NCBI RefSeq assembly: GCF_000515335.1
Contig: NZ_KI911563.1
Span: 4,663,233 to 4,727,232 of the forward strand
DNA length: 64,000 bases
Reading direction: 5' to 3'
DNA from: Cohnella panacarvi Gsoil 349
GTDB taxonomy: Bacteria > Bacillota > Bacilli > Paenibacillales > Paenibacillaceae
Part shown: positions 14,906 to 62,671 of the stretch, piece after piece
How positions within the stretch are numbered: position 1 is the stretch's first letter
Layout of the letters: each line of letters starts with the position of its first letter
Translations under genes and position numbers: made by a program
The notes under the pieces: model-generated
What the model saw: the letters and a program-made list of their open reading frames with translations, nothing else
What the model was told of the DNA's origin: nothing
The model's database searches: none

Positions 14906-14915
14906 AAGGAGCAAC

Positions 14916-16331: not shown

Positions 16332-16337
16332 GAAGGG

Positions 16338-16622
16338 AAGAAGAAGCAATGTCGAAGACGGGAACAGTAAGCTTGTCTTTGGTCTCTAGAGAGTTGGCGG
16401 CAGGTGCAAGCCAATGTCCGAAGCTAGCCGAACATCATCCCCGAGACGCTTACTCGAACTTCGCGCTGGCGCGCGGACAGTAGAGCAAGCCGGCCGCTCG
16501 CCGTTATACGAGCTAGCCGATCATGATCGGCTGCCAAGAGCCGTGCCTTAGGATTCAAGGGTGCGGAACAAGGGTGGTACCGCGAGTCGAACCTCGTCCC
16601 TTACCGGGATGAGGTTTTTTTG
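16338..16622 (+). promoter_or_regulatory. T-box riboswitch, isoleucine-specific
   Basis: Leader RNA that senses uncharged tRNA-Ile and controls ileS by antitermination. The T-box sequence AGGGTGGTACCGCG lies at 16571-16584. Stem I shows the AGAGAG element, GGTGCAAGCC apical part and, on its 3' side, a specifier region GAACATCATCC with ATC at 16434-16436 (a second ATC at 16437-16439), giving the Ile codon followed by A. The terminator AACCTCGTCCC/GGGATGAGGTT with seven T residues ends at 16622. The match to the downstream gene makes the assignment firm. Confidence 0.92.
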
Positions 16623-16669
16623 TATTTCCAGGGTTTGTCATTACCAATTGGGTTAAGGGGTTGAATCGC

Positions 16670-19600: not shown

Positions 19601-19753
19601 TTCGAAGTCGAACCGGAACTTCGCGGGGCGTTGGCGCTGTTCGATGAAGTACTGCGGTCTAACGTGCTGGTCAATAACGTCACTTTCGGAACGGCTTCAA
19701 ACATGGATACGATCATCGCGGGAGATTTCACGATCCGTCTTGCCATCCAGTGA
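16670..19753 (+). CDS. ileS: Isoleucyl-tRNA synthetase, type 2 (eukaryote-like)
   Basis: Class I synthetase that charges tRNA-Ile. The 1027-residue length and motifs EGPPTANGKPHIGHV, KAGWDTHGLPVELGVEK, SHEVAQGYEDV, FICEGIDQTRGWFFSL and KMSKSKGN are those of the IleRS2 class, which is longer than the usual Bacillus type 1 enzyme (about 920 aa). Type 2 enzymes are commonly insensitive to mupirocin. The CP1 editing domain is present (AWTTTPWTLPANVALAVHP). ATG 16670, 9 nt after AAGGGG, is preferred over TTG 16661. It is preceded by a T-box with an Ile specifier and followed by a hairpin that contains a dispersed repeat. Confidence 0.95.
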   Translation: MRRVDVKERARAREQRILEQWSKENTFRQSIENRAGRPNFVFYEGPPTANGKPHIGHVLGRVIKDFVSRYKTMAGYRVIRKAGWDTHGLPVELGVEKQLGISGKQEIEKYGVEPFIIKCRESVFEYERQWRELTEAIAYWTDLDDPYITLKDEYIESVWHILATIHEKGLLYRGHRVSPYCPDCQTTLSSHEVAQGYEDVKDLTATAKFKLSGSGEYALAWTTTPWTLPANVALAVHPDLDYARVRQADGVYILASALVEKVMKGEYEVLGTVKGRDLVGQTYEPLFPYVKVEGAYRIIDADYVSDTSGTGIVHIAPAHGEDDHRVARQHGIPMLMVVNGAGRYIDEVTDLAGRFVKECDVDIVRKLSERGLLYHKEKYEHSYPFCWRCKTPLLYYATESWFIKTTAVKDQLIENNKSIQWYPEHLRDGRFGKFLEDLVDWNISRNRYWGTPLNVWTCESCGQEKAVHNRAELRELAVGDVAADLELHKPYVDAVQLKCSCGGVMNRASEVIDVWFDSGSMPFAQYHHPLGDEKTFAEQYPADFICEGIDQTRGWFFSLLAVSTLYNGKAPYKSVISTGHVLDENGQKMSKSKGNVIDPWEIINEFGTDAFRWALLADSAPWNSKRFSKGIVAEAKSKVVDTLVNTHAFYALYATIDGYVPGQHAKAKSDNKLDRWIVSRLNSLVSSVGGGLEANDFLNPAKNIESFIDELSNWYVRRSRDRFWGSGLTDDKLAAYQTLGEVLMTLSRLIAPYAPFVAEDIYGNLGGTGSVHLTDYPVADVSAIDEELERDMATARNLVELARNIRNENNIKTRQPLSDLLVSLSGEFNLADYEEIIKDEINVKTITIASDDSSFVNFNLKLNLKAAGKKYGKNVGPIQAALKGLSGDESRGVVQSGVFGFVSPEGESLAVGIDELLVEKEAKSGFASASGGGVTVALNTEITPELEKEGWVREVIRAVQDQRKKLDLPIEKRVDLVFEVEPELRGALALFDEVLRSNVLVNNVTFGTASNMDTIIAGDFTIRLAIQ

Positions 19754-19807
19754 ATGAAGCATAATCGCGCGATCGATTAGCTAAACATAATAGGAACAAC
19801 GATAACG

Positions 19808-19873
19808 ACGAGCTCTTATCCCCGTCGCTCAGGCGCATGTTGCGTTTGCGTCGGATGGGGAGAGCTCGTTTTG
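19808..19873 (+). terminator. Hairpin/terminator after ileS containing a dispersed repeat fragment
   Basis: ACGAGCTC (19808-19815) pairs with GAGCTCGT (19862-19869), the stem is extended by CCCC/GGGG, and a short T run follows. The left arm includes TTATCCCCGTCGCTCAG (19816-19832), a partial copy of the dispersed repeat, so the repeat seems to have become part of the terminator. Confidence 0.6.
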
Positions 19874-19897
19874 CATTCGATCGGTGAGGGTAAACTG

Positions 19898-19925
19898 CCT
19901 TTATAACGATATCCCCGTCGCTCAG
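19898..19925 (-). repeat. Dispersed repeat copy (cluster 2, left)
   Basis: Full-length copy in inverted orientation, 43 bp before the DUF5665-type gene. Direct-orientation copies lie just after that gene at 20412 and 20456. Confidence 0.8.
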
Positions 19926-19968
19926 GAGCGATGTACCAACGGGGCTCATAGGGCGAGGGGGCATTCGC

Positions 19969-20406
19969 GTGAACAATATGGATCTTAACAACAATGGCAA
20001 CGGAAAAAACGGGAGCGGTAAAATCAATCAGATCAAAGTAAAAGTGACGGCAGACCCGGGAATGACCAAGATCGACGGAACGTCGAAGCTGGCGGAAGAG
20101 GCAAGCGCGCTTAGAAGTACGCTTGATTTTTTGTCCGAACGGATTAATAAGCTGGCTTTAGATATGGAGAAAGCGCAGCTTAAGGAATACGTAAACCTCA
20201 TGCATAAGCCTTGGCAGCTCATCCTCAAAAATTTTCTTGCCGGACTGTCTCGGGGTGTCGGCATCGCGCTAGGATTCACGTTTTTCGCGGCGACGATCGT
20301 GTGGCTGTTGCAGCTGCTCGGCGCGCTGAATCTTCCGATCGTAGGCGATTACATCGCGGATATCGTGCGGATCGTCAAACGGCAGTTGGAAATTAATCCG
20401 TATTAA
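19969..20406 (+). CDS. DUF5665-type small membrane protein
   Basis: 145-residue protein of unknown function. It has an Asn/Gly/Lys-rich start, a possible coiled coil (about 45-70) and one strong transmembrane segment (about 95-117, ALGFTFFAATIVWLLQLLG) followed by a short amphipathic tail VGDYIADIVRIVKRQLE. The helix before the membrane (LKEYVNLMHKPWQLILKNFLAGLSRGVGIALG) resembles DUF5665 proteins. The start is GTG 19969, 7 nt after GAGGGGG; ATG 19978 is possible. The gene is enclosed by opposite-facing copies of the dispersed repeat, the right-hand one beginning 5 bp after the stop. Confidence 0.65.
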   Translation: MNNMDLNNNGNGKNGSGKINQIKVKVTADPGMTKIDGTSKLAEEASALRSTLDFLSERINKLALDMEKAQLKEYVNLMHKPWQLILKNFLAGLSRGVGIALGFTFFAATIVWLLQLLGALNLPIVGDYIADIVRIVKRQLEINPY

Positions 20407-20411
20407 CGCGC

Positions 20412-20484
20412 CTGAGCGAAGGGGATACCGGTATGCGCGGCAAGTTTAGCGATTCCTGAGCGAAGGGGATATCGTTATAAAGGG
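20412..20484 (+). repeat. Two dispersed repeat copies between convergent genes
   Basis: CTGAGCGAAGGGGATACCG at 20412-20430 and a full-length copy at 20456-20484 that ends TTATAAAGGG. They lie between the 3' ends of the DUF5665-type gene and yteA. Confidence 0.8.
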
Positions 20485-20548
20485 GCGATGCAGAGGATGA
20501 CTATTCCTGATCCTCCGACGCCCCCATGCTTCAACGGCACAAAGCTAT

Positions 20549-21280
20549 TCACTCGTCCACGTACTCATCGGGTTCGAGCAAATGCTCTCCTTCGCCGGCG
20601 GCCATATACTGGCGATAGGCGCGATTGCGCACGATGCTCACGTGACTGCCGGTAATGTCCGTGGCAAGAAAGCTTTCGAGCGGTTCGACGAAGCCGTCGT
20701 TCTCGTCCGACTCGATCGCCATCGAATCGTAGTTGTCGATGTTGCGGCCTTCCGCCATTGCCGGACTGTTCGAACTGCCCCACGATTCGACGATCTGCCA
20801 AGCGTCTTCGCCGTCGAACCCGTTCTGGCTTTCTTTCTCGTCCAAGCTCGTTCGGCCGAACGGCGGCGTTAAGAACAACTCCTCGGCGGGACGCCGCTCG
20901 ATGTTCTCCTGACGCGGCTCATGTTCGATACAGTAGATCGCCGTCGGAAGCGCCTCCAGACGTTCGAGCGGAATGAACTTGCCGCATGCGACGCAACGGC
21001 CGTATTCGCCGCTCTCCATGCGGCCCAGCGCCGCGTCGACGCGCGCCAGCCGAAGCTCTTCTTTTTCCATGAGCGCATAGTCTTTGCTTCGTTCGAACGT
21101 CTCCGTTCCGGCATCTCCGGGATGGTTGTCGATTCCGGACAATTCGCCGGTCGATTCTTTGAATGAAGAAGTCAGTCCGAAATGGTCGTTATCGCTGATT
21201 CGAGCTTCAAGCTCGCTTTTCTCCTGCAGCAGCCTTCGTTTAAGGCGCTCCATTCGCCCATGGTCCAACTGCATCGTCAA
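20549..21280 (-). CDS. yteA: TraR/DksA-type zinc finger protein, YteA family
   Basis: 243-residue protein of the YteA/YocK sporulation-associated DksA-like family. An N-terminal coiled coil (MERLKRRLLQEKSELE) and TGELSGIDNHPGDAGTETFERSKD precede the zinc finger CVACGKFIPLERLEALPTAIYCIEH, a C-C-C-H version seen in this family. A long acidic C-terminal tail follows. In DksA relatives the coiled coil enters the RNA polymerase secondary channel; the function here is not established. TTG 21280 with GGGAG 8 nt upstream was chosen; ATG 21274 is an alternative. It is divergent from lspA. Confidence 0.8.
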   Translation of the reverse strand: MTMQLDHGRMERLKRRLLQEKSELEARISDNDHFGLTSSFKESTGELSGIDNHPGDAGTETFERSKDYALMEKEELRLARVDAALGRMESGEYGRCVACGKFIPLERLEALPTAIYCIEHEPRQENIERRPAEELFLTPPFGRTSLDEKESQNGFDGEDAWQIVESWGSSNSPAMAEGRNIDNYDSMAIESDENDGFVEPLESFLATDITGSHVSIVRNRAYRQYMAAGEGEHLLEPDEYVDE

Positions 21281-21334
21281 GCTGTCCACTCCCTTCTTCC
21301 TTTCACAGGATGTAGTTTTCCCGCCGGATGTCGT

Positions 21335-21363
21335 TTTACGAGTGGAAAGCAATGTGATAAAAT
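21335..21363 (+). promoter_or_regulatory. Likely sigma-A promoter for lspA-rluD
   Basis: TTTACG (21335-21340), 17-bp spacer, TAAAAT (21358-21363), with TG upstream of the -10. It lies in the divergent gap between yteA and lspA, 36 bp before the lspA start. Confidence 0.45.
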
Positions 21364-21398
21364 GGGCACGCAGGAGAATCGAAGAGGAGCGAGATTTC

Positions 21399-21938
21399 AT
21401 GGAACAGCGCCGCCCGCCGATCGGTCTTTATTACGCTATCGCGGCATTCGTTTTTTTACTGGACTACGTGACTAAAAAAATGATCGCTCGCAACGTCGAT
21501 CTTAATACGGAGCAAATCAGCGTCATCGGAGATTTTTTCTTGATCTCGCATATTCGCAATCGCGGCGCGGCTTTCGGCATCCTGGAGGGACAGCGTTGGT
21601 TTTTCGTCCTGATTACGATCGTGGTCGTCAGCGCGATCGTCTGGTATCTGCATCGTTCTTATCGCCAAGGGAGAGTACTGTTGCTTGTCGCGCTGGGCAT
21701 GATCCTGGGCGGTGCGATCGGCAATTTTCTAGATCGTTCGATTTACGGCGAAGTCGTCGATTTTCTGCAATTCAACTTCGGCTCTTACACGTTTCCTCTA
21801 TTCAACGTAGCGGATTGCGGCATCGTCTGCGGCGTTGGTCTTGTCATCTTGGACGCGCTGCTTACCCCGAAACAGGAGAATGAATCTAATGACAACGGAG
21901 AACAAACCCGAGATCGCGGAGAACAAACAACCGTTTGA
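21399..21938 (+). CDS. lspA: Lipoprotein signal peptidase (LspA)
   Basis: Membrane aspartyl peptidase that removes the signal peptide of prolipoproteins after lipid transfer; the window encodes several candidate substrates (the lipoproteins near 39.8, 42.6 and 47.5 kb). It has 179 aa and four transmembrane helices. The catalytic motifs are GNFLDRSIYGEVVDF and FNVADCGI, each with its Asp. ATG 21399 follows GAGGAG. The C-terminal hydrophilic tail is longer than usual because the gene runs 50 bp into rluD. Confidence 0.93.
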   Translation: MEQRRPPIGLYYAIAAFVFLLDYVTKKMIARNVDLNTEQISVIGDFFLISHIRNRGAAFGILEGQRWFFVLITIVVVSAIVWYLHRSYRQGRVLLLVALGMILGGAIGNFLDRSIYGEVVDFLQFNFGSYTFPLFNVADCGIVCGVGLVILDALLTPKQENESNDNGEQTRDRGEQTTV

Positions 21939-22896
21939 GGCTTGGGCGCAAGATACGGAATCGGACGAATCCGATAACCGGGTAGAGTGGCGCGTGAACG
22001 ACGCTTCCTCCGGAGAGCGCATCGACAAGCATTTGACCGAGCGTCTGGCGGACAGGCAGGTGTCGCGTTCGCAGGTTCAAGAATGGATTCGGACCGGCGC
22101 CGTTACGGTGAACGGCGGGCAAGTGAAGCCGAACGCCAAAGTCGCCGCGGGCGACGGCATTATCGTGACGATACCCGGTCCCGAGCCGCTTGAAGCGTTC
22201 CCGGAGAACATTCCGCTCGACGTCGTGTACGAAGACGGAGACGTAATCGTCGTCAATAAGCCGCGCGGCATGGTCGTCCACCCGGCGGCAGGCCATCCGA
22301 ACGGAACGCTCGTGAACGCGCTGTTGTACCATTGCAAAGACTTATCCGGCATTAACGGAGTGATGCGTCCCGGCATCGTGCACCGGATCGATAAAGATAC
22401 GTCCGGATTGCTCATGGTCGCCAAGAACGACTTGGCGCATGCTTCTCTCGCCGCGCAGCTTAAGGCACATACCGTGAATCGCCGCTACTACGCGGTCGTA
22501 TACGGTCAAGTGGAACACGATAAAGGAACGATCGATGCGCCGATCGGCAGGGCGAATCAAGATCGCAAGCTGTACGTCGTGACGGAGAAGAACAGCAAGC
22601 ACGCCGTTACGCATTTTGCCGTATCCGAACGATTCGGCGATTATACGCTGCTCGATCTCAGGCTGGAGACGGGTCGTACGCACCAAATCCGCGTGCATAT
22701 GAAATATATCGGGCATCCGCTTGTCGGAGACCCGGTATACGGAGGCAAGAGCGGGCGCACGCTCGGCATGTCCGGGCAAGCGCTCCATGCGGGCGTACTC
22801 GGATTCGAACATCCGCGAATCGGCGAGTGGCTGGAGTTTGCCGCCCCGATTCCCGAAGACATGGAGCATGCGTTGAATATTCTAAGAACGCGTTGA
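21889..22896 (+). CDS. rluD: RluD-family 23S rRNA pseudouridine synthase
   Basis: Enzyme converting uridines to pseudouridine in structured RNA, of the RluA/RluC/RluD group (335 aa). An N-terminal extension of about 25 residues is followed by an S4 RNA-binding domain (ERIDKHLTERLADRQVSRSQ) and the catalytic domain with the Asp in GIVHRIDKDTSGLLMVAKN. LRLETGRTHQIRVHMKYIGHPLVGD is the conserved C-terminal block. ATG 21889 fits an AGGAGA 9 nt upstream; ATG 21880 is possible. The start lies 50 bp inside lspA in another frame, so the pair is likely translationally coupled. The exact target uridine cannot be read from the sequence. Confidence 0.9.
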   Translation: MTTENKPEIAENKQPFEAWAQDTESDESDNRVEWRVNDASSGERIDKHLTERLADRQVSRSQVQEWIRTGAVTVNGGQVKPNAKVAAGDGIIVTIPGPEPLEAFPENIPLDVVYEDGDVIVVNKPRGMVVHPAAGHPNGTLVNALLYHCKDLSGINGVMRPGIVHRIDKDTSGLLMVAKNDLAHASLAAQLKAHTVNRRYYAVVYGQVEHDKGTIDAPIGRANQDRKLYVVTEKNSKHAVTHFAVSERFGDYTLLDLRLETGRTHQIRVHMKYIGHPLVGDPVYGGKSGRTLGMSGQALHAGVLGFEHPRIGEWLEFAAPIPEDMEHALNILRTR

Positions 22897-50210: not shown

Positions 50211-50299
50211 GCCGGGGTGGCGGAATTGGCAGACGCACAGGACTTAAAATCCTGCGGTGGGTGACCACCGTACGGGTTCGACCCCCGTCCTCGGCACCA
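50211..50299 (+). tRNA. tRNA-Leu(UAA), island insertion site
   Basis: 89 nt, type II tRNA with a long variable arm (GGTGGGTGACCACC) and encoded CCA; the anticodon loop CTTAAAA gives TAA. Its 3' 68 nt are duplicated at 60805, marking site-specific integration of the island that follows. Confidence 0.95.
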
Positions 50300-50301
50300 C
50301 T
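50232..50301 (+). repeat. Left attachment repeat (inside tRNA-Leu)
   Basis: 70 bp starting GACGCACAGGACTTAAAATC and ending CGGCACCACT, identical to 60805-60874. It covers the anticodon arm, variable arm, T arm and acceptor 3' strand. Confidence 0.95.
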
Positions 50302-50389
50302 TAATTTTATTGGTTTTTTGCATAACGGTGCTAATGCTAAAAGTGCACGAGTCCTGTGGTACTATTCACTACACAGGATTTCGAAAGAT

Positions 50390-50437
50390 AAATCCCTTTT
50401 TTGACTTGCTGAGATCAGGTCAAGGAGGGATTTTTTT
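50390..50437 (+). terminator. Hairpin overlapping the recombinase start
   Basis: AAATCCCT pairs with AGGGATTT, with an inner GAC/GTC stem, then seven T residues. It resembles a terminator for tRNA-Leu supplied by the island, and its right arm contains the AGGAGGG ribosome binding site of the recombinase, so folding would also hide that site. An inverted repeat TCCTGTG/CACAGGA lies upstream at about 50351-50378. Confidence 0.55.
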
Positions 50438-51054
50438 GTACAAGAAAAGAGTAAAGGGAGTGCAATCTAAATTCATTGCGGATTGGAAAGAATGCTTGGA
50501 GAGGTTCTTACGTTTTAAACGAGCTCAAAGTAAAAGTGAGTTAACGAATGGATGACTATCGGAGACATATCTCGATGTTTTTTCGGAGATATGATTCGGA
50601 CTGGGTGGTGTATGAAAATATCGACCAAAAATCTTGAAGCGTCTGTTGGAACTACCCGACAAACACACATTTGCTGGTACCGATTAGAATGCAAACTATA
50701 CGGTCTATAAAACAGTTGCTTTCAGCACGGCATTCAGAGTGGTCTGCTAAAACGCCCATATTTTGCACATGGGAAGGAAATTCGCTAACAAGGCATACAT
50801 GGGGGATAGGATGGAGGTTTACTCTAACGCACGTGGAATGAAAATAAGACCATATGATTTGCGGCATGTTTTTCGTTGAATTTTCTACGCAATGGTGCTT
50901 CGGTATTTGCATTACAAAAAGCTTAGGACATACAGATTTGACGATGACAAAGCGGTATGTTGCTCTTTCGAATGAAGATCTAAAGAAACAACATAACTAT
51001 GCATCACCAATCCATTCGCTAGTACCTGAGAAAAATCGGATAGGTAAATTATAG
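50436..51054 (+). pseudogene. Tyrosine recombinase (island integrase), broken
   Basis: Pieces of one integrase in different frames. N-terminus from TTG 50436: YKKRVKGVQSKFIADWKECL and LERFLRFKRAQSKSELTN, then a stop; the next frame continues DDYRRHISMFFRRYDSDW. A large central part is missing. The C-terminal catalytic part appears in three frames: RPYDLRHVF (Arg-x-x-His box), LNFLRNGASVFALQK, and SLGHTDLTMTKRYVALSNED with the Leu-Gly-His box and the catalytic Tyr. A one-base loss in an A run (near 50917) breaks the last two. The gene starts at the tRNA end of the island, the normal place for its integrase. It cannot encode an active enzyme. Confidence 0.85.
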
Positions 51055-51056
51055 TT

Positions 51057-51506
51057 CTAAGGGGCGGAAAATCCGTCCCTTTTTACTTTTTTGGATAATT
51101 TCTCAATGACCCAGTTCTCTACTTCTTTAATTGAAACCCCATGATCTAAAGCCACTTGCTATTCTAACCTTCAAATATTGTGGTTGATATCCCTTACGCA
51201 CTCATATGAATAGCGGAGGGAAATTGACCATTTTTACTCTTACAGCGAAATCACCATTCTAGAACAAAAAGATTAGGTTTGAAGAAGGTGTGTAGCTAAT
51301 TATGACGAATTATTGGAGACAAATATTAATATTGAGAATTAGAGAGTGGGTAACTCAAAAAACAAGTATTTGACCTGAGTGGATTATCCCTATAAGTACG
51401 ATCTTCTAAGATTGTGTCTTATGGTTACTTTGCGATAAGTAATATTAAAGTTGATCTTACTAAAGACATAACCCTATATTGCAATTCTTCAAAGGAGTAT
51501 TGTCCA
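51057..51506. other. AT-rich gap with a minus-strand gene remnant
   Basis: 450 bp without an intact gene. On the minus strand (51158 to 51057) an open stretch reads LDHGVSIKEVENWVIEKLSK and ends at a stop; it looks like the C-terminus of a lost gene. A possible promoter for the SIR2 gene, TTGACC at 51370 and TATAAG at 51391, has a short 15-bp spacer. Nothing else was recognised. Confidence 0.35.
51059..51084 (+). terminator. Terminator after the recombinase remnant
   Basis: AGGGGCGGA pairs with TCCGTCCCT around AAA, then five T residues. Confidence 0.7.
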
Positions 51507-54500
51507 ATGTGGATAACGAAACATATCGATCTTCCTGATGAAATAATTGAAGCCCAGAAAAAAGGTGAACTTGTAATTTTCGCTGGAGCAGGTGTATCAA
51601 CACCACCTCCATCAAATTTACCGAATTTCGAAAAATTAGCTAATGCGATTGCACAAGGTTATATTCCGTATAATAAATCCACTTCAATAGACACCTTTTT
51701 GGGGAAATTGCTAAACAGAGGAATAAGAGTGCATGAAAAAGTCATAGAGCTACTAACCTCACCAGATTCTAAACCTTGTTCTTATCATAAAAACATAATA
51801 AAGCTATTCGATAAAGATGATATTAAAATTGTAACAACGAACTTCGACGATCATTTTAGAAGTGCAGCTTATGGTCTTGAATTGCCTATTTATTCAGCTC
51901 CAGCACTGCCATTGGGTCGTGATTTTACTGGAATTATTCATTTACATGGAAGTGTAACAAAGAGACCGCATGATTTAGTGATAACAGATAGCGATTTCGG
52001 AAGAGCATATTTTACAGATGGCTGGGCTACTACATTTTTAAGGGGTATGTTCTCTAACTATGTAGTTCTTTTTATTGGATTTAGTGCAAATGATCCCGTT
52101 ATTCAATACATTGCACGTGGATTGGGATCAAACAATCGTAATAGATATGCATTTACTGAAGAAGGGCAACACGAACATTGGAATCACCTACAGATCAAAT
52201 ACATTGAATACCCGTATTCCAGGCATCAATTGTTAGAAGAAGCAATTGAAGCTTGGGTTGTTCGGACACAAATGGGTGTATTTGAACAACGGAAGCTTAT
52301 AAAAGATATTGCTGAAAACCCTCCTGAATTGAATGCAGTCGATGAAAGCTATATCAGACATCAGTTAAAAGACCAGTTAGGAGCACAACATTTTTTTGAG
52401 TTCTCTAAGGATTTTCAATGGGTAGAGTGGATGGATAGTAACAATTATTTGGATTCCCTCTTTAAGATTGATACAGAACTTACGCCGATTAAACATATGC
52501 AAGCGATATGGTTTTCCAGTTTCCTTGGCGATGACTCAGAGAGAATGTTAAAACTAATCATGGATAAAAATGCCATAGGAAGTTATTTTAAAGACTATCT
52601 AATGAGAGCATTGCAATTGAAAAGTGTAAACCTATCTGCTGATCATTTTGGTAAATGGCTACCGGTTATTTTGAACCATGTTAATTTTAATAGGAAGGAA
52701 GATCAAATAGAATTTATTTGTAAAGATTTGGAGTATCCGAAAAACAGGGACCAAATTATTGTTTTTATTAAATACTTGACTACTCCAATTACTAAGTATA
52801 GAAAGAAATTTTCACTTTCTGAAAGCAATAATGAATTCGTTGATGTAGAAATAGAAATTCAAGGTGATACTTATTGGTTAAGACAGATTTGGTCAAAGTA
52901 TGTCGCACCAAACCTTGATTTTTTTTCATTTCCTATACTGAATCTATTAATTAATCAACTTCAACTGGTAACTCACCTTCAAAAAGCAACAGGGCATGGA
53001 GATTGGGACCCTATTAGTTTCTCGCGTTCTGCAATCGAACCGCATGAACAAGACCGATATCCAGATAGTATGGATATTGTTATTGATGGTTGTAGAGACT
53101 CACTAAAATACTTAATCGATCATGATGTGGATCTTGCTTCTTCGATTATTAACCAATGTTTTATGAGTGATAGCAAATTACTAAAACGAATTGCTATCCA
53201 TTCATTTAAGTTACTTGATACAATCACTTATGATGGAAAGTTACAATGGGTAATAGAAAATGAATTATTGTTTAAATCAGATTTTAAGCATGAGGTATAT
53301 CAGCTAATTAAACATGTATATTTTCAAGTGACAATCAAAAGTAAGAGGCAGTTTTTGAAGAATATTAAGGATGAGTTTGAGAAGAAAAGAGCGGTATTAG
53401 AAGATTCCAGAAAAGAAAGTATGGATTATGAAGAGTTTAATTTATACTACTGGCTTACTGTTTCAGACGAAAATTGCAGATTAGCAAGAAGAGCCTTTAA
53501 AGATGCAAAAAGGAGAAATAAGCGTTTTGAGGCGAGAGACGAATATCCTGATTTTACTCACTGGAGTTCGACTGGTGGTTTTGTAAGGTTATCTAGCAAA
53601 GTAACAGTAGATAAATTATTATCAAAAGACCCTGATGATCCTACCGATTTAAATTGGCTTATGAATTACAAAGAGAAAGATAGTTTCTTTGATAGACGAG
53701 AAGGTTTTTTAGAGGTTGTTAGTTCCGCAATTGCCACTCAACCTGCATGGGGGTGGAAATTGATGAGGCGTTTGGTAGCTCCTCCGAAAAAGTGGAAAAC
53801 TGATCTGTGGAAGTCTGTTATAAATGGTTTAAAAGAAACGAATTTATCAAATGAAATGTGGTTTGAACTTTCTAAAACCTTATTAGACCATCGGTACCTC
53901 AATACGCTGCGTTATGAGATTGCATATCTTTTTGATAAGGCAACAAAGTCTGTTGGAACAGATTTTCAACAAAGTATCAGTGTAATAATAAAAATTTTTA
54001 ATAAAATATTCAACGCGTCGGAAAATTCCGATATCTCTGCGACTGATGATCCATTTATTCAAGCTATCAATCATCCTGTTGGTAAGCTAACTGAATTTTT
54101 CTTCTGGGTATATATAGAGAGCTTTAATGATGATGGGGCTAATAAGCAAATCATAAGTGAAATTAAGAAGGATGTTTTTTCTAAGCTGATTAATCAAAAA
54201 AATGATAAAGCTCAGTTGGGTCAAGTTATCCTTGCTCACAGATTGCATATTTTCTTGTCCGTTGATGAGAAATGGAGTAAAGATAATTTAATCCCATTAT
54301 TTGATCCTACGTATGATAAAGAAATGGCCATAAAGGCCTGGAATGGATATGCATATGGCGTAAGATGGAATGAGCGAATTCTAGAAAGTCTTTTCCCGAA
54401 CTTATTGTTGATATTACCTTTCACTAACGATATGAAAGCTAAAATTGAAGAAAGCATTTATCGCCTGTGCTCATCGATATTGTTATTCTCAACGGATTTC

Positions 54501-55046
54501 CATGAACCATTAATGAATCATTTTATTACGTCAGGAAATGGATACCAATTAACACTTCTGACCAAAGAGCTGAAACACAATACTATTCAGCTTGATGAAC
54601 AAGCTCTACTGACTGCTTGGCAAAATTGGTTAGGTAATTACATCACAGCCAGGCTTCAAAACCTTCCAGTCAGAATCAGTGATGATGAAATACTTGAAAT
54701 AATCGATTGGGTTCCTTACGTAGAACCTGTCATTGAAGAATTTGTAAATCTGTTGGTTACCTCTAGGCAGGTAAGATTGAAGAACAGTCATTTTATATAC
54801 CAAATCAGCGAAAATGAATTAGGCAAAAGGTATCCATTTACAATGTTGATTTTTTTAGATTACATTTTGAAAGATACTGATTTGGCCTTTTATGCTGAAG
54901 AGGCCTTCACCATTATGACGCATATACTTGAAGCACTAGGTAATAAAAATGATCACTATCCAATCGTTTGCGAGAAATTAATGCAATCCAATGTTTTGAG
55001 AGCTGTTGAGCTAAGGGAACAATATTATTTTAAGTTTAGATCATAA
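51507..55046 (+). CDS. SIR2-domain protein with long helical C-terminus, probable antiphage NADase
   Basis: 1179-residue protein. The N-terminal SIR2-like domain (about 20-270) shows the NAD-binding VIFAGAGVSTPP, TTNFDDHF (Asn-Asp), HLHGSVTK with the catalytic His and FIGFSANDPVIQYIARGL. The remaining 900 residues are mostly helical and charged, without a Walker A motif, so it is not a STAND ATPase; the end may correspond to DUF4020, known behind SIR2 domains. Related SIR2 defence proteins (DSR1/DSR2, Avs5, SIR2-HerA) deplete NAD on sensing phage, with the C-terminal part as sensor. ATG 51507 with AAGGAG 9 nt upstream was chosen over the frame start at 51414. It stands alone between the integrase remnant and hsdR; codon use is AT-rich. 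Confidence 0.85.
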   Translation: MWITKHIDLPDEIIEAQKKGELVIFAGAGVSTPPPSNLPNFEKLANAIAQGYIPYNKSTSIDTFLGKLLNRGIRVHEKVIELLTSPDSKPCSYHKNIIKLFDKDDIKIVTTNFDDHFRSAAYGLELPIYSAPALPLGRDFTGIIHLHGSVTKRPHDLVITDSDFGRAYFTDGWATTFLRGMFSNYVVLFIGFSANDPVIQYIARGLGSNNRNRYAFTEEGQHEHWNHLQIKYIEYPYSRHQLLEEAIEAWVVRTQMGVFEQRKLIKDIAENPPELNAVDESYIRHQLKDQLGAQHFFEFSKDFQWVEWMDSNNYLDSLFKIDTELTPIKHMQAIWFSSFLGDDSERMLKLIMDKNAIGSYFKDYLMRALQLKSVNLSADHFGKWLPVILNHVNFNRKEDQIEFICKDLEYPKNRDQIIVFIKYLTTPITKYRKKFSLSESNNEFVDVEIEIQGDTYWLRQIWSKYVAPNLDFFSFPILNLLINQLQLVTHLQKATGHGDWDPISFSRSAIEPHEQDRYPDSMDIVIDGCRDSLKYLIDHDVDLASSIINQCFMSDSKLLKRIAIHSFKLLDTITYDGKLQWVIENELLFKSDFKHEVYQLIKHVYFQVTIKSKRQFLKNIKDEFEKKRAVLEDSRKESMDYEEFNLYYWLTVSDENCRLARRAFKDAKRRNKRFEARDEYPDFTHWSSTGGFVRLSSKVTVDKLLSKDPDDPTDLNWLMNYKEKDSFFDRREGFLEVVSSAIATQPAWGWKLMRRLVAPPKKWKTDLWKSVINGLKETNLSNEMWFELSKTLLDHRYLNTLRYEIAYLFDKATKSVGTDFQQSISVIIKIFNKIFNASENSDISATDDPFIQAINHPVGKLTEFFFWVYIESFNDDGANKQIISEIKKDVFSKLINQKNDKAQLGQVILAHRLHIFLSVDEKWSKDNLIPLFDPTYDKEMAIKAWNGYAYGVRWNERILESLFPNLLLILPFTNDMKAKIEESIYRLCSSILLFSTDFHEPLMNHFITSGNGYQLTLLTKELKHNTIQLDEQALLTAWQNWLGNYITARLQNLPVRISDDEILEIIDWVPYVEPVIEEFVNLLVTSRQVRLKNSHFIYQISENELGKRYPFTMLIFLDYILKDTDLAFYAEEAFTIMTHILEALGNKNDHYPIVCEKLMQSNVLRAVELREQYYFKFRS

Positions 55047-55093
55047 TGGGAGAGTATGCTAATTACTACGTATTCTTTTAAATAACTGGGTTC

Positions 55094-55177
55094 GGTAAGA
55101 TAAATTCACTAATAGGTCGTGGATGGTTGACTTATCAAGTCTTTCCTGCGACTAGAGGACGCACAGGATCATAAAAT
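55094..55177 (+). repeat. Decayed internal copy of the island right-end sequence
   Basis: Aligns with 60742-60825: shared blocks include GTAARATAAAYTCA, GGTTGAYTTATCAAGYCTTT and GAGGACGCACAGGA, then ATAAAAT in place of CTTAAAATC. The similarity stops inside the tRNA part. An inverted repeat GACTT-ATC-AAGTC lies within it, a possible recombinase site. Confidence 0.75.
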
Positions 55178-55221
55178 GAACAATGAATGTGATTGTGTAA
55201 AATGTATACTACGGTCTAATT

Positions 55222-55245
55222 GAGCCCATTATTTTGGGCTCTTTT
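55222..55245 (+). terminator. Terminator between the SIR2 gene and hsdR
   Basis: GAGCCCA pairs with TGGGCTC, followed by TTTTATTTG. The rest of the 380-bp gap holds the decayed attachment copy and AT-rich sequence before hsdR. Confidence 0.75.
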
Positions 55246-55427
55246 ATTTGACTAAAATACAAATGACATAACAAACTTCTATTGAATCATTCTTTTTCTC
55301 ACTCTTTATAGATTTTTTAGTAGTATTATTACAGGAGATAACGTCCAATAGTGGAATAAGTCTATTGAACTACTTTTTTGATATCTTAATTAATAAAAAA
55401 GGAATTGTACTAAGGAGCGTGTCGGTT

Positions 55428-57788
55428 TTGAGTAAAAAAGATCTTTCAGAACGGGATATATGCTCTAAATACATTACACCAGCTGTAGTTCAATCGGGTT
55501 GGGATCTACAGAAGCAAATACGTGAAGAAGTTTCTTTCACAGACGGCCGTATTATCGTTCGCAAGAAGATGGTAAGTCGCGGTGAGAAAAAGCGTGCTGA
55601 TTATATCCTTTATTATAAAGCTAACCTTCCTATCGCCATTATTGAAGTCAAGGATAATAAGCATTCTATCGGTGCAGGGATGCAGCAAGCGATTAACTAT
55701 GGCGATATCCTGGATATTCCTTTTGTCTATTCCTCGAATGGGGATGGGTTTCTTGAACATGACAGGACAGCTACCTCAGGAGAAGTTGAGCGTGAACTAA
55801 CATTGTCGCAATTTCCTTCTCCTGAGGAACTGTGGCAGAGATATAAAATCGCCAAAGGTATTGCTGTAAAAACTGAAGAAACAATTGTCGAGGAGTATTA
55901 CTTCACACAGGAGTCTAAAAGCCCTCGCTATTACCAACGTATAGCCATTAACCGGACAGTTGAAGCAATTGCCAAAGGCCAAGACCGTATCCTACTTGTA
56001 ATGGCGACTGGAACAGGTAAAACATATACAGCGTTCCAAATCATTTATCGTTTATGGAAATCCAAGACAAAGAAACGCATTCTCTTTCTCGCTGACAGGA
56101 ACATTCTTGTTGATCAAACAATGACCAATGATTTTGCTCCGTTTGGCGACAAGATGACTAAGATAAAGAACCGTAAAATAGATAAAGCTCATGAAATATA
56201 CCTTGCATTATACCAAGGTATTACAGGTACGGAAGATTTTCAGAATGCTTATAAAGAATTCTCTAGAGACTTCTTCGATTTGATAATCATAGACGAGTGT
56301 CATCGCGGCAGTGCTAAAGAGGATTCGGCATGGCGGGAGATATTAAATTATTTTGATTCTGCTACCCATGTTGGACTAACTGCAACGCCTAAGGAAACCA
56401 AGGAAGTTTCAAACTTGAGTTATTTTGGCGATCCGTTATATACATATTCGTTAAAACAAGGTATCGAGGATGGGTTCCTTGCTCCATATAAAGTCGTTCG
56501 AGTACTACTAGATAAAGATGTCGAGGGATTCCGACCGACCAAAGGCCAGCGAGATAAGTACGGTTATGAAATAGAAGATCGGGAGTATAACATCAAGGAT
56601 TACGATAAAAATCTGATCTTGGAAAAACGTACACATACTGTTGCGAAAATGGTTTCGGATTATTTGAAGTCCAACAAGTCACGCATGGCAAAAACGATTT
56701 TCTTCTGTGTGGACATTGATCATGCCGAACGTATGCGACAAGCATTAGTTAATGAAAATGCAGACTTGGTAGCTAAGAACTCGAAGTATGTAATGAGGAT
56801 CACGGGCGATAATGACGAAGGAAAAGCTGAATTAGATAATTTCATCGATCCTAATGAACCATATCCAGTTCTTGTCACTACAAGTAAACTCATGACTACT
56901 GGTGTTGATGCGAAAACATGCCAGTATATTGTTCTAGACTCCAATATCAACAATATGATCGAGTTCAAACAAATTATCGGACGTGGAACTCGAATTCGAG
57001 AGGATTTTGGAAAGTTATATTTTACGATTATCGATTTTAGAAATGTAACCAAGTTATTTGCCGATCCTGATTTTGACGGTGATCCGATTGTCGTCAAACC
57101 AGTCACAGGAGATATTCCTCCAGAAGATGGTCCTGAAGATGGAGGCGAAGCTGGAGGGTCAGGTGACGATACTCCTGGGGGAGGGTATGGAGATCCTCCT
57201 GGCGGAGATGGAGGAACCAATGAGCCACCTGCCAAATATTACGTGCATAATATTGAAGTCAAAGTTCTTAACCATCGTGTCTATTACTACGACAAAGATG
57301 GTAAACTGATTACCGAGTCACTAATCGATTACACTAAGAAAAATGTGAAAAATGAGTATCAGTCACTAAATGATTTTTTAGTCAAATGGAACGATGCCGA
57401 AAAGAAGAATGCCGTGTTAAAGGAATTAGAGGCTCAAGGCATTTTATTGGATGAACTGCAGGAGGAAGTGGGTAAGGACTTTGACCCATTTGATCTGATT
57501 TGCCACGTGGCGTTCGATCAACCGCCTCTTACACGTCGAGAGCGGGCTGAGAACGTAAAGAAACGTAATTATTTTGCGAAATACAGTGAGCAAGCTAGAC
57601 TCGTTTTAGAAGCTTTACTGGAGAAATACGCAGACGAGGGAATCGTGAATCTAGAGAGCATTGAGATATTAAAGATTCCAGAATTCCAATCCTTTGGTTC
57701 ACCAATTGAGATAGTAAAAAGATTTGGTGGGAAACAAGGTTATTTAACCGCAATTAAAGAGTTAGAACAAGTAATTTATTCAGCATAG
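55428..57788 (+). CDS. hsdR: Type I restriction endonuclease subunit R (EcoEI-like)
   Basis: 786-residue motor and nuclease subunit. The N-terminal nuclease domain has [20 protein letters not shown] (Asp..Glu-x-Lys). The SF2 helicase motifs follow: [13 protein letters not shown] (I), [11 protein letters not shown] (II), GLTATPKET (III) and [12 protein letters not shown] (VI). A Gly/Pro/Asp-rich linker (about 560-603) joins the motor to a C-terminal helical domain of the EcoEI-R type that docks on HsdM. TTG 55428, 10 nt after AAGGAG, is preferred. It is the first gene of an R-M-S operon. Confidence 0.92.
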
Positions 57789-57812
57789 AAGCAACTGGGA
57801 GGATAATCACAA

Positions 57813-59255
57813 ATGTCAGTTTCAGCAGTAATTAAATCAGTACAAGATACAATGCGTAAAGATGCAGGTGTCGATGGCGATGCTCAACGAATTTCTCAAT
57901 TAGTATGGATGGTGTTCTTAAAAGTCTTCGATGCTAAGGAAGAAGAATGGGAGTTATTGCGTGACGAGTATTTGCCAATTGTGCCTGAAGGATTACGTTG
58001 GCGTGATTGGGCAGCCAATGACGAAGGCATGACAGGTGACGATCTTCTTGACTTCGTGAACAATAAGCTGTTCAAAGAGTTAAAAGATATGCAATTAGAT
58101 GAATACAGCGATCCAAAGGCTTTTATTGTGAAAGCTGTATTTGAAGATTCCTATAACTATATGAAGTCAGGTACTTTAATGCGTCAAGTGATCAATAAGC
58201 TGAATGAAATTGATTTTACTACGCAACAGGACCGCCATATGTTTAATGATATATACGAGAATATACTGAAAGACTTGCAGAATGCGGGTAATGCTGGGGA
58301 ATACTATACTCCACGTCCTGTAACACAATTTGTTGTAGATATGGTTAATCCGCAGCTTGGTGAGAAAGTCCTGGACTTCGCTTGTGGAACTGGTGGTTAT
58401 TTGACGAGCACAATCGAACACTATATAAGTACAGATCAAATCAAGAATATTGAATCAAACCATTTATTACAGGAAACGATTATGGGAATTGAAAAAAAGC
58501 CTCTACCACATATGCTGGCTATGACGAATTTGATCTTACATGATATTGATGCACCTAAGATTAAGCATGATAACTCACTTTCGAAAAATGTTAGGGAATA
58601 TCGCCCCATTGATCAAGTTGATGTAATTGTGACGAATCCACCGTTTGGTGGGATTGAAGAAGACGGTATTGAAATTAACTTTCCTGAAAAGTTTCGTACT
58701 AAGGAAACAGCCGATTTATTCATGGTTTTGCTTATGTATCTTCTAAAAGATGGTGGTCGAGCGGGAATAGTCTTACCTGATGGATTTTTATTTGGGGAGG
58801 GAGTTAAAACAGCAATTAAGGAAAAGTTGCTAGATGAATTTAACCTTCATACCATTATTCGCCTACCAAGTGGGGTCTTTGCACCTTATACGAGTATAAG
58901 TACAAATGTTTTATTCTTTGAAAAAGGGAAGTCTACGAATTTAATTGATTATTATCAAGTACCTTTGCCTAAAGGCTATAATAGTTTTTCCAAAACTCGT
59001 CCATTCAGATCTGAACATATGGAACAAGTGCGAAAATGGTGGAATAATCGTGATTATGACTTGAATGGTTATCAAGTGACAATCGAACAGATTAAAGCTA
59101 GAAACTATAACATTGATTTTAAAAATCCTAACTTAATACAAGAACAGCCAGATTATTCTTTAGAACAGTTATCAGTTATGCTAGAACTAAAGTCATTACA
59201 CTTCTCAACTCTTGTTGGAAAGATTAAAGCGTCTATTCAAGGAATGGAGAAGTAA
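57813..59255 (+). CDS. hsdM: Type I DNA methyltransferase subunit M
   Basis: N6-adenine methyltransferase (480 aa). N-terminal helical domain (QDTMRKDAGVDGDAQRISQL) and catalytic domain with SAM motif VLDFACGTGGYL (I) and VDVIVTNPPFGG (IV, NPPF). GNAGEYYTPRPVTQFVV is the conserved lead-in. ATG 57813 follows GGGAGG. It acts with HsdS as M2S1 and protects the host DNA; it is required for HsdR cleavage too. HsdS starts 2 bp downstream. Confidence 0.95.
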   Translation: MSVSAVIKSVQDTMRKDAGVDGDAQRISQLVWMVFLKVFDAKEEEWELLRDEYLPIVPEGLRWRDWAANDEGMTGDDLLDFVNNKLFKELKDMQLDEYSDPKAFIVKAVFEDSYNYMKSGTLMRQVINKLNEIDFTTQQDRHMFNDIYENILKDLQNAGNAGEYYTPRPVTQFVVDMVNPQLGEKVLDFACGTGGYLTSTIEHYISTDQIKNIESNHLLQETIMGIEKKPLPHMLAMTNLILHDIDAPKIKHDNSLSKNVREYRPIDQVDVIVTNPPFGGIEEDGIEINFPEKFRTKETADLFMVLLMYLLKDGGRAGIVLPDGFLFGEGVKTAIKEKLLDEFNLHTIIRLPSGVFAPYTSISTNVLFFEKGKSTNLIDYYQVPLPKGYNSFSKTRPFRSEHMEQVRKWWNNRDYDLNGYQVTIEQIKARNYNIDFKNPNLIQEQPDYSLEQLSVMLELKSLHFSTLVGKIKASIQGMEK

Positions 59256-59257
59256 TC

Positions 59258-60712
59258 ATGTTTATTGATGAGTTGAAAGCTACTATGTTGGCACTTGCGA
59301 TGCAAGGAAAACTTGTTCAGCAAAATTTGATGAATGAGACGATTAGTTCTTTTTATAAAAGTGATGAAAGTAAATTAGATTTGAATCTGTCAGCAAATGC
59401 AAGTGAAATTCCCTTTGAACTACCAAATGGATGGCAGTGGGTCAGGGTTCCTGAATTCCTCTTTTTTCAAGAGGGCCCTGGCGTGAGGAGTTATCAATAT
59501 ACAGACACGGGTGTTAAACTGTTGAATGTTGCCAATCTACAAAAAGGGAAACTGGATTTAACAACATCTTACAGGTATATATCTGAAGAGGAAGCATGTG
59601 GCAGGTACAATCATTTTCTTGTAGATGAAGGTGACTTGATAATCGCAAGTTCAGGGATTACCGTTGAAACTTTTGAAAAAAAAATGGGGTTTGCGGAAAA
59701 AGAACATCTACCATTATGTATGAATACAAGTACAATAAGGTTCAAATCCCTAAATCCAAAAGAATTGGATATACGATTTTTTATGTACTTTTTAAAAAGT
59801 GAAATTTTTAAAAAGCAATTATCAGAATTAATTACAGGCTCAGCACAATTAAACTTTGGCCCGTCCCATTTACAAAAGGTTATATTTCCGTTGCCGAGTT
59901 ATGAAGAACAACAACAAATCATATTTAAGATTGATGAAATGTTTGCCTTAATTAAAGATTTAGAAGAAATAAAAAATGATACACACGACTTGGTTAATAA
60001 AATGAGGAAAAAAGTCCTTCAAGACGCCGTCGAAGGTAAACTTGTTCCACAAGATCCAAATGATGAACCAGCAAACGTTTTGTTTGAGAGGATTATGGAA
60101 GAGAAAGAACGGTTGATAAAGGAAAAGATAATCAATAAAGAGAAGCCTCTTCCTCCAATACAAGAACATGAGATCCCTTATACGCTACCACAAGGTTGGA
60201 CATGGGTTCGCTTAGGAGAAGTGGCGTATCATTCTCTTGGTAAAATGCTTGATAACCAAAAAAATAAGGGTAATCTTCATAATTACCTTAGAAATTACAA
60301 TGTGAAATGGTCTTATTTTGAATTAGATGACGTATTACAAATGAAATTTGAAGATAATGAGTTTGAGAAATATTCAGTTATAAAAGGTGATCTAATTATT
60401 TGCGAAGGTGGGTATCCAGGAAGGGCAGCAGTATGGGAGCAAGATTATTCAATATTTTTTCAGAAAGCACTTCATAGAGTTAGATTTCTATCAACATATA
60501 CGAATTATTTTTTCTTAAATTATTTGTTGTTAAGTGATATGAATGGGGAATTAGAAAAGCACTATACCGGTTCTGGGATACAACATCTTACAGGAAAGTC
60601 TTTAAATAAAATAACATTCCCACTTCCTCCATTAAATGAACAGAAACGTATAGTTGAAAAAGTTAATCAATTTATGGCTCTATGTGATGAAATGGAAAAG
60701 TCAGTGATATAA
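59258..60712 (+). CDS. hsdS: Type I restriction specificity subunit S
   Basis: 484-residue DNA-recognition subunit with two target recognition domains (about 45-225 and 305-465), each introduced by a similar PNGWQWVRVPE/PQGWTWVRLGE segment and ended by a coiled spacer (LPSYEEQQQIIFKIDEMFAL and LPPLNEQKRIVEKVNQFMAL). The central conserved region reads VLQDAVEGKLVPQDPNDEPA. Two intact domains imply a bipartite, asymmetric target. The gene ends 92 bp before the right attachment repeat. Confidence 0.93.
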   Translation: MFIDELKATMLALAMQGKLVQQNLMNETISSFYKSDESKLDLNLSANASEIPFELPNGWQWVRVPEFLFFQEGPGVRSYQYTDTGVKLLNVANLQKGKLDLTTSYRYISEEEACGRYNHFLVDEGDLIIASSGITVETFEKKMGFAEKEHLPLCMNTSTIRFKSLNPKELDIRFFMYFLKSEIFKKQLSELITGSAQLNFGPSHLQKVIFPLPSYEEQQQIIFKIDEMFALIKDLEEIKNDTHDLVNKMRKKVLQDAVEGKLVPQDPNDEPANVLFERIMEEKERLIKEKIINKEKPLPPIQEHEIPYTLPQGWTWVRLGEVAYHSLGKMLDNQKNKGNLHNYLRNYNVKWSYFELDDVLQMKFEDNEFEKYSVIKGDLIICEGGYPGRAAVWEQDYSIFFQKALHRVRFLSTYTNYFFLNYLLLSDMNGELEKHYTGSGIQHLTGKSLNKITFPLPPLNEQKRIVEKVNQFMALCDEMEKSVI

Positions 60713-60804
60713 TCTTAATTTGCAACAAACAACCAAGTCCTGTAAAATAAACTCATCGGCAAGTCGCAAAAGGTTGATTTATCAAGCCTTTTCAGCGTTT
60801 TGAG

Positions 60805-60874
60805 GACGCACAGGACTTAAAATCCTGCGGTGGGTGACCACCGTACGGGTTCGACCCCCGTCCTCGGCACCACT
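60805..60874 (+). repeat. Right attachment repeat (tRNA-Leu 3' fragment)
   Basis: Perfect copy of 50232-50301. It is not a functional tRNA, as the 5' third is missing. Upstream (60742-60804) lies the end-specific sequence that is also found, decayed, at 55094-55177. Confidence 0.95.
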
Positions 60875-60886
60875 ACATCGATATAC

Positions 60887-60933
60887 AAATCCCTTTTCGT
60901 CCTTGTTCTTGCAAGGCGAATAAGGGATTTTTT
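60887..60933 (+). terminator. Original tRNA-Leu terminator, displaced by the island
   Basis: AAATCCCTT pairs with AAGGGATTT (inner CCTTG/CAAGG), followed by six T residues. It lies 12 bp after the right repeat, where the tRNA-Leu terminator would be in an island-free chromosome. Confidence 0.75.
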
Positions 60934-60953
60934 GTGATGTACATGCCTATCTT

Positions 60954-61676
60954 TCAAAGAAGAGGAATTTCAAGCTTGAATGTAATTTGACCGCCTTTAT
61001 TCTGGTATTGCAATCTCCCTCCTAACCTGGCCGCAATTTCTTGTACGATCGGAAGACCGATACCTCCATGATCATGCTTGGTGGTATAGCCTTGCTTAAG
61101 CATGTTTCTAGAAACGCACTTGGGAAGTTTTCCCGGATTAATGACCCTAACGAGCAGCTTATCATTCTTCATATTCCCGTGGACGCGAACCCACCGATCA
61201 TGTTGATCTCGGCAGGCCGCATATTCGATGGCGTTATCGATCAAGTTTCCGAATAATCTCACGAGTTCTAACGGCGACAGATGAGCTGGAATCAATCTCC
61301 AATTCTCAAACTGGAACATGAATAGCACGCCGCGCGTTTCGGCATCTGCCTGTTTCGTTTGAAGTAAGGCAGTAAGCACCGGGTGGCCAAGCTCGTACTT
61401 CTCGAACGTATACGTTACATCATTGGCCCATCGTTCCGTGTATTCGAGTAGATCCGCATATTCTTGCATGGACACCAGAGCGTTGATGGTATTCACATGG
61501 TTCAGAAGATCATGCTTCTGCGCTCGTATTTCGAATTGCTGATCTCTCATTTCCTTCACTTGCTCCGCATAACAGCGAATGCTGTGTTTCAATCGGGATT
61601 CCGAGCGTTTGATTAATATGATCCATAGGCTTAAAACCGCAATAATGCCGATGCTCCAGTAGAAAGGCAGGTTCAC
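60954..61676 (-). CDS. Sensor histidine kinase, GHKL family (partner of LytTR regulator)
   Basis: 240-residue kinase with one N-terminal transmembrane helix (WSIGIIAVLSLWIILI), a coiled region, the phosphorylation motif AQKHDLLNHVNTI (His), N-box LFGNLIDNAIEYA and G-box GGIGLPIVQEIAARLGG. It resembles SpoOB/CitA/AgrC-type sensors but has only one membrane helix and almost no outside sensor domain. GTG 61676 begins 1 nt after the regulator stop, with GAGGTG overlapping that gene, so the pair is coupled. The signal is unknown. Confidence 0.85.
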   Translation of the reverse strand: MNLPFYWSIGIIAVLSLWIILIKRSESRLKHSIRCYAEQVKEMRDQQFEIRAQKHDLLNHVNTINALVSMQEYADLLEYTERWANDVTYTFEKYELGHPVLTALLQTKQADAETRGVLFMFQFENWRLIPAHLSPLELVRLFGNLIDNAIEYAACRDQHDRWVRVHGNMKNDKLLVRVINPGKLPKCVSRNMLKQGYTTKHDHGGIGLPIVQEIAARLGGRLQYQNKGGQITFKLEIPLL

Positions 61677-61677
61677 C

Positions 61678-62454
61678 TCACTCACCTCGGTTTCGGCGCT
61701 CCAACTGTTCGGCGAATTTCGATACTTGAGCACGGCCGAGCGGGGCTGTCAAGGTGCTGTTCCGGAAGAGAATGACGAACCTTCGAATTAATCCGCTCTT
61801 CGGAGTGTCGGGATCCTTCGTGAATCCGGATACGTGCCGTAAGTTGACTAATACTCCTCGAATGGTTTCGACCAAGTTCGGCGCCATCATCTCCTTGAGT
61901 TGCTGAAGCGTATAGATACTGCGAATACGTTCGCCGTTCGTCAGGAAGATCGTAACCGATTTTTTGGAGGGTAGCTTCTCGATCATAAGAATCATGCTTT
62001 CCGAAATGGCGAAATTTTGTTTGGAACGAGAGGATTCTACAAGAATTTCTTGCGTATTTTCAATCGAGCTGACTTTGGCTGCGGACGCGGCCTTCTCCTT
62101 AATTTTATCGATGGCAATGTTCCACCGGTCGCTCGTGATCGGTTTGACGACGTAATACGCCCCGATCTCGTTGACCGCCATCATGACGTTGTACGGATCC
62201 GTAGAGCCCGTAACGAACATGATCGTCAAGTCGGTTTCACCTAACTCGCGCAATCTAAGCGCGGCGTCAATCCCTGACATATCCTCTAATTCGATGTCCA
62301 GAATGACCAGTACCGGCCGGTACTTTAGGACCAGCTCCACGAATTCGAGCCCGGAATGCGTCTCGGCTATGACGTCGAGGTCGCTCGCTGCACATAAAGA
62401 CCTAATTTGTTTGCGTACATGCTGTACATCTTCGGCAATAATTGTCCTCATCAT
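61678..62454 (-). CDS. LytTR-family response regulator
   Basis: 258-residue regulator. The receiver domain (1-120) has the acidic pair (AEDVQ), the phospho-acceptor in VILDIELEDMSG, the Thr in FVTGSTDPY and the Lys in VVKPI. The C-terminal domain (about 150-250) carries IFLTNGERIRSIYTLQQLKEMM, VETIRGVLVNLRHVSGF, typical of LytTR DNA-binding domains. ATG 62454 follows AAGG by 10 nt. Two 9-12-9 repeat sites lie just upstream in the divergent gap, so it probably controls itself and the SseB-like gene. Confidence 0.87.
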   Translation of the reverse strand: MMRTIIAEDVQHVRKQIRSLCAASDLDVIAETHSGLEFVELVLKYRPVLVILDIELEDMSGIDAALRLRELGETDLTIMFVTGSTDPYNVMMAVNEIGAYYVVKPITSDRWNIAIDKIKEKAASAAKVSSIENTQEILVESSRSKQNFAISESMILMIEKLPSKKSVTIFLTNGERIRSIYTLQQLKEMMAPNLVETIRGVLVNLRHVSGFTKDPDTPKSGLIRRFVILFRNSTLTAPLGRAQVSKFAEQLERRNRGE

Positions 62455-62671
62455 CCATCTTCTACCTTCTCTTAAAAGATTTTCATTCCATGTTAGCAGA
62501 AAAATGATATTATTTTCCACACTTCGATCAAAACTAACATTATTTTATTTGTCAAGGCTACCAAAGAGAGTTAAATGTATTTTCATGTCTAATCATGTCT
62601 ATTACTAGCGAATTAGGTTTGCAGATAGAGCGAATAGGTAAATACAACATCATTAATGATTTGTCAAGTGC

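Follow-up and report, generated by a model that had tools for sequence, protein, structure and literature searches.

What entered the tRNA-Leu(UAA) gene of Cohnella panacarvi Gsoil 349, and did it arrive in one piece? The question is raised by a 64,000-nt stretch of DNA (NZ_KI911563.1, positions 4,663,233 to 4,727,232; hereafter the window, whose own numbering is used below), part of a 4.77-Mb single-contig genome. An earlier note made from the sequence had described here an AT-rich block at the tRNA gene with exact 70-bp ends and two defence systems, a SIR2-domain protein and a type I restriction-modification (R-M) system, and had treated it as one insert. We find the island, its cargo and its ends as described. 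A third, decayed end inside the island, an integrase reduced to a pseudogene and an R-M segment without an integrase speak against a simple unit, and we consider it probable that the island is a composite, in which an element bearing an integrase and the SIR2 gene was joined at its right end by a related segment carrying hsdR, hsdM and hsdS (hsdRMS), with the integrase decayed.

Ends of the island and a third end within it

The boundaries, all on the + strand, are as follows.

50211..50299, +: tRNA-Leu(UAA), the target gene, complete at the island's left end (ARAGORN)
50232..50301, +: attL-side 70-bp direct repeat (tRNA 3' part), 100% identical to 60805-60874
55080..55168, +: putative decayed internal right end, terminating in GAGGACGCACAGGA, tRNA 3' part lost; 72% to 60727-60815
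60727..60804, +: right end of the island, resembling 55080-55157
60805..60874, +: attR-side 70-bp repeat (displaced tRNA 3' part), 100% identical to 50232-50301
60887..60933, +: displaced tRNA-Leu terminator, a terminator-like stem with T6 read by eye; 77% over 49 nt to the terminator of genome G030

The 70-bp repeat comprises the last 68 bases of tRNA-Leu(UAA) and two more, its two copies start 10573 nt apart, and a search of the strain's own genome found no third full copy. As in tRNA genomic islands generally, a complete tRNA stands at one end and a displaced fragment at the other, in the same orientation. In 2-kb windows the GC content is 0.34-0.40 inside the island and 0.51-0.60 to its left; the contrast is weaker on the right, because the windows there reach only 0.46-0.47. 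The earlier note had proposed a comparison of the tRNA-Leu locus among relatives, and in G030, of the same genus, the tRNA does read directly into a terminator matching that at 60887 (E = 1.5 × 10−4), with no second tRNA fragment seen in the 13.5 kb fetched. G030 is the sole genome showing this island-free arrangement; its downstream genes differ from those of the window, and no other fetched relative has a sequence match to the terminator. Paired tRNA-Met genes recur upstream of tRNA-Leu in several same-genus genomes. Across the other 59 of the 60 genomes, nothing matches the downstream flank (60875-61733) at the DNA level, and synteny is therefore not tied on both sides.

The stretch 55080-55168 resembles 60727-60815 at 72% over 89 nt without gaps, and in a BLAST search of the strain's own genome the final 44 nt align at 84% (E = 7 × 10−7). 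Both copies lead on to GAGGACGCACAGGA, a sequence that extends into the 70-bp repeat; beyond 55168, only TAAAAT remains of the tRNA part. This internal end divides a segment with the integrase and the SIR2 gene from a segment with hsdRMS and no integrase. On the simplest reading of these sequences, 55080-55168 would be a former right end, followed by the hsdRMS segment. In the terms used for cis-mobilizable elements (CIMEs), the hsdRMS segment has an intact outer attachment site, half a core at its inner site, and no integrase match.

Alternatively, SIR2 and hsdRMS could have arrived together on one integrase element, 55080-55168 being an internal duplication of the right end. The presence of only two intact attachment repeats, the lack of a second integrase and the AT-richness of both segments favor this single arrival, whereas the run of the internal copy into the first 14 nt shared with the outer junction, and the tandem arrays of relatives at tRNA-Leu(UAA), argue against it, and we regard it as improbable. 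Several observations weigh against accretion as well. The internal site retains the left half of the core only, so that accretion is likely rather than proven, and a duplicated right-end piece would look the same as a former attachment site. No trace of a second integrase is present in the island, where tblastn with the integrase of a relative, G018, matched the single remnant only, and a right end of the window's type is absent from the other 36 of the 37 same-genus genomes, the rank that this search covered. Finally, the outer repeats are identical although the integrase gene (int) has decayed; either int broke down quickly and not long ago, or a later event renewed the ends.

The integrase and its family at tRNA-Leu(UAA)

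50448..51051, +: decayed tyrosine integrase, its pieces alternating between frames and about two internal stretches absent (tblastn with related integrases)

A C-terminal piece of 66 aa lies in 50854-51054. The intact relative in G018 stands directly behind tRNA-Leu as a 336-aa frame with PF00589, and matches the remnant at 41% over 137 residues; its frame opens about 105 bp after the tRNA, and the likely start codon lies about 175 bp after it, past a leader hairpin. Integrase relatives at E ≤ 1e-30 occur in 75 of the 392 genomes of the order. Within the genus, two of 18 loci have an integrase downstream of tRNA-Leu (counting open reading frames that are 120 aa or longer and begin no more than 6 kb away), namely G018 and G031, both of which were in the set used to build the integrase profile. 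We fetched 32 integrase loci, picked from the best matches; because 24 of these have the integrase directly behind tRNA-Leu(UAA) (19 complete tRNAs, three 5' halves and two 3' fragments), most of the family is directed to this gene. Of the 32 loci, seven that lack tRNA-Leu upstream and one behind tRNA-Leu(CAG) count against such targeting. Among the matches listed in literature searches, there was no earlier description of a Paenibacillaceae integrase family at tRNA-Leu(UAA). One member (L118 of G196, 2384-4790) is interrupted by a 406-aa gene, presumably a transposase from its appearance by eye.

In place of the functional integrase of a tRNA genomic island, the window thus has a pseudogene. 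The G018 integrase has no match in the strain's own genome at E ≤ 1e-30, and the remnant's C-terminal piece at E ≤ 1e-6 matches only itself there. With the integrase broken and no close family relative in the genome, the island is unlikely to excise in cis. A different recombinase of the cell might keep the island mobile by supplying integrase in trans, and the nine Phage_integrase loci of the genome, together with identical 70-bp ends that could mean a recent event, are compatible with this; set against the two negative searches, we give mobility in trans very little credence. The conjugation genes of an integrative and conjugative element (ICE) were not found, the island's open reading frames of at least 200 aa being SIR2 and HsdRMS only.

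Tandem arrangements recur at this tRNA gene. Five of the 23 integrase-bearing genomes (G060, G196, G326, G409 and G125) have three or four clustered copies or fragments of tRNA-Leu(UAA), and G010 has three. No integrase was found in two segments of G010 and two of G060 with a profile by which distant integrases were detected in G196 and G326. Right ends of another class, mutually alike and with TTTGCTAAC repeats, occur at tRNA-Leu(UAA) in G060, G196, G326, G176 and G010 (loci L205, L216-L219, L213 and L037); the elements of this class in G196 and G326 have a 389-aa integrase on the opposite strand, and some other segments have none. In L037 (G010; reverse complement, 3043-13177), a 10-kb segment between tRNA-Leu fragments, with no integrase detected, encodes proteins of 1680 and 655 aa that might form a defence cassette. 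One could extend the composite reading to the whole family of bacteria, with tRNA-Leu(UAA) of Paenibacillaceae as the docking site of a cassette array, where integrases supplied in trans would insert and remove short integrase-less segments that share their right ends and in some cases bring defence genes, the hsdRMS segment being one such; we think this doubtful.

Islands of the same integrase family in three genomes (G322 C1:503659-565414, G208 C19:617280-681479 and G178 C1:3038750-3082461) are flanked on the left by a tRNA 5' half and on the right by a complete tRNA-Leu(UAA), which is preceded by promoter-like sequence. That these islands split the sole copy of the gene was considered and rejected, as all three genomes contain another tRNA-Leu(UAA) within a tRNA cluster. 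Islander already counts islands with a 5' fragment, 159 of 3919 in the part of that paper cited here (PMC4383910).

Defence cargo and a proposed history

51507..55046, +: SIR2 and helical-repeat protein, 1179 aa, with a Dsr1-like N-terminus and DUF4020-type relatives
55428..57788, +: hsdR, about 786 aa, start uncertain within 55365-55428
57813..59255, +: hsdM, 480 aa
59258..60712, +: hsdS, 484 aa, with two specificity-domain stretches

The 1179-aa protein has a SIR2_2 domain with the conserved Asn and His of the Dsr1/DSR2 type, which we take to be active-site residues. The PADLOC model Dsr1 matches it with 247 bits in two stretches, of which the better spans residues 36-343 (model 6-353 of 1248) and the second is given without a location, and its best Foldseek and VIA matches are the SIR2 defence proteins DSR2, Dsr1 and ThsA. 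Sequence matches to the solved DSR2 are confined to the SIR2 domain; fold matches beyond it were set aside, since they are to general helical repeats and the predicted template-modelling score (pTM) is low, at 0.49. Judged by its family, the protein probably stops infection through NAD+ depletion. The R-M system is complete, hsdR, hsdM and hsdS each having the expected domains, and HsdRMS would, like its family, cut unmodified DNA.

An hsdR/M relative, at 90%, is found in G320, where DNA similarity spans 55421-59129, from near the hsdR start into hsdM, and where the 20 kb fetched around it showed no tRNA. Both facts would suit an entry of hsdRMS near the right end of an existing SIR2 island by homologous recombination or another route, rather than by site-specific accretion; such an entry leaves the two similar right ends flanking the cluster unexplained, and we judge it unlikely. 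With the window's SIR2 protein alone as query, no relative was found in the genome contigs; an alignment of ten relatives as query did find some. A frame-broken relative at 59% identity is present in G008, of the same genus, and in Cohnella kolymensis. In the latter (L122, NZ_JXAL01000014.1) it is broken into pieces of 906 and 274 aa and sits in a tRNA-Val(GAC) island with 84-bp perfect ends (reverse-complement coordinates 7125-22632), the integrase leader hairpin of which is built similarly to that of the tRNA-Leu family. Close relatives lacking an insert at this tRNA and having the SIR2 and hsd genes elsewhere had been named in advance as a case against the island; half of it is seen, since relatives of hsdR/M and of SIR2 do lie elsewhere in other genomes, which refutes nothing and fits separately mobile cargo.

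Under composite formation, the following history may be proposed. A tyrosine-integrase element of the Paenibacillaceae family aimed at tRNA-Leu(UAA) entered at the anticodon-stem core, restoring the tRNA 3' part and displacing the native terminator to the far side, as the anatomy and the island-free relative show, and brought the SIR2 defence gene. A second, related segment with the type I R-M system would then have joined at the right end of the first, after which the junction decayed; to judge from the third end, the hsdRMS segment, which now has no integrase, would be like a CIME. With its integrase a pseudogene, the island would now be immobile in the absence of an integrase acting in trans.

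Immediately downstream, on the minus strand (window 60954-62520), lie genes for a GHKL-type sensor kinase and a LytTR response regulator.

Leader and right-end signals in relation to known systems

50352..50378, +: inverted repeat TCCTGTG-N13-CACAGGA, presumed integrase accessory site
50391..50437, +: leader hairpin and T-run, terminator-like, holding the Shine-Dalgarno (SD)-like AAGGAGG of int (z = −3.1 in the window)
60720..60748, +: possible outward promoter TTGCAA-N17-TAAAAT within the right end (consensus match only)

The hairpin, like the internal end and the integrase remnant, had gone unmentioned in the earlier note. Leader counts refer to 26 of the 34 oriented loci (24 fetched, G018 and the window), leaving out L120, in which the int start is decayed, and seven loci without tRNA-Leu upstream. 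With up to one mismatch per arm, TCCTGTG...CACAGGA stands between tRNA and int in 22 of the 26 leaders (0.2 expected in mononucleotide shuffles), and its half-site is the anticodon stem of the target tRNA; of the four leaders that lack it, three come from islands that have a tRNA 5' half. A hairpin and T-run lie just before the int start codon, with z < −2 in 24 of the 26 leaders (mean −3.7), scores biased low by the choice of segments to end at a hairpin already found, and in all 26 the SD-like box, of 5 bases, has 3 to 5 of them paired. Folding alignments took in 12 and 10 of the 26 leaders (L095, L096, L113 and L116 being outside). The stem covaries in the 12 alignable leaders, where 94.1% of cells are paired, double-change cells number 16 vs. 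6.8 in shuffles, and the covariation score is 0.462 vs. 0.323 (0/500 each). Less favourable to a conserved stem are two of the five covariation measures, which are weaker (double-change pairs, 6 vs. 3.9, 34/500; further pair types, 21/500), and RNAalifold, which gave no common fold in the second set of 10 leaders, where the automatic alignment was poor. The right ends of G018, G368, G088 and G409 have TTGYGT-N17-TATAWT, read by eye and not flagged by a promoter scan, then CACAGGA...TCCTGT; that of the window has a single TCCTGT besides TTGCAA-N17-TAAAAT.

These signals recall ICEKp1. Experiments on that element (2026, PMC13023037) show the tRNA terminator to be displaced once ICEKp1 has integrated, and int to be transcribed from the promoter of the tRNA and attenuated by stem-loops in its leader; in the circle, int is instead driven by a promoter at the 3' end. 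The same behaviour is reported there for ICEclc and ICEEc1. By analogy, in intact relatives the tRNA promoter probably reads through the leader into int, the hairpin may serve both as a substitute terminator and as a lock on the ribosome-binding site that keeps int expression low, and the outward right-end promoter would drive int only in the circle. The displaced terminator, int close behind the tRNA, the leader stem-loop and the outward 3'-end promoter are shared with ICEKp1 and ICEclc as reported in that paper; the integrase family and the bacterial family (Paenibacillaceae) are different, the hairpin contains the int ribosome-binding site, and the int of the window is broken, for which reason the scheme, known here from sequence alone, would be a relic in the window.

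As with the islands defined by Islander (PMC4383910), in the portion of the paper drawn on here, there is a restored tRNA at one end, a displaced fragment at the other and a tyrosine integrase beside the tRNA. Unlike those, the window has a decayed integrase and one segment without an integrase, and because of that segment it would not be resolved by Islander's rule of one integrase and one fragment per tandem member. Segments accreted in tandem at one RNA gene, some without integration genes, are described for CIMEs (PMC5704250) and for Dehalococcoides ssrA islands, 15 of which have no integration module (PMC3146451), and the window, G010 and G060 resemble both. By comparison with those systems, as far as these sources describe them, the window has a decayed inner attachment site, SIR2 and type I R-M cargo, a tyrosine integrase, tRNA-Leu as its site and a host of another bacterial family. 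The SIR2 protein in turn shares with DSR2, Dsr1 and ThsA, in what the sources used here give of them, a SIR2 fold and a long helical part, and differs from them in its 1179-aa length and DUF4020-type relatives. Tandem accretion with CIMEs and control of int by tRNA promoter and attenuator are thus already known, and the island is of an ordinary kind. It is a clear case of defence cargo stacked at one tRNA gene, and its integrase family, recognisable by leader and ends, could be used to survey tandem and integrase-less segments that integrase-based finders may miss. If the leader hairpin works as drawn, control of the integrase from a tRNA promoter would extend from proteobacterial ICEs to another integrase family in another phylum.

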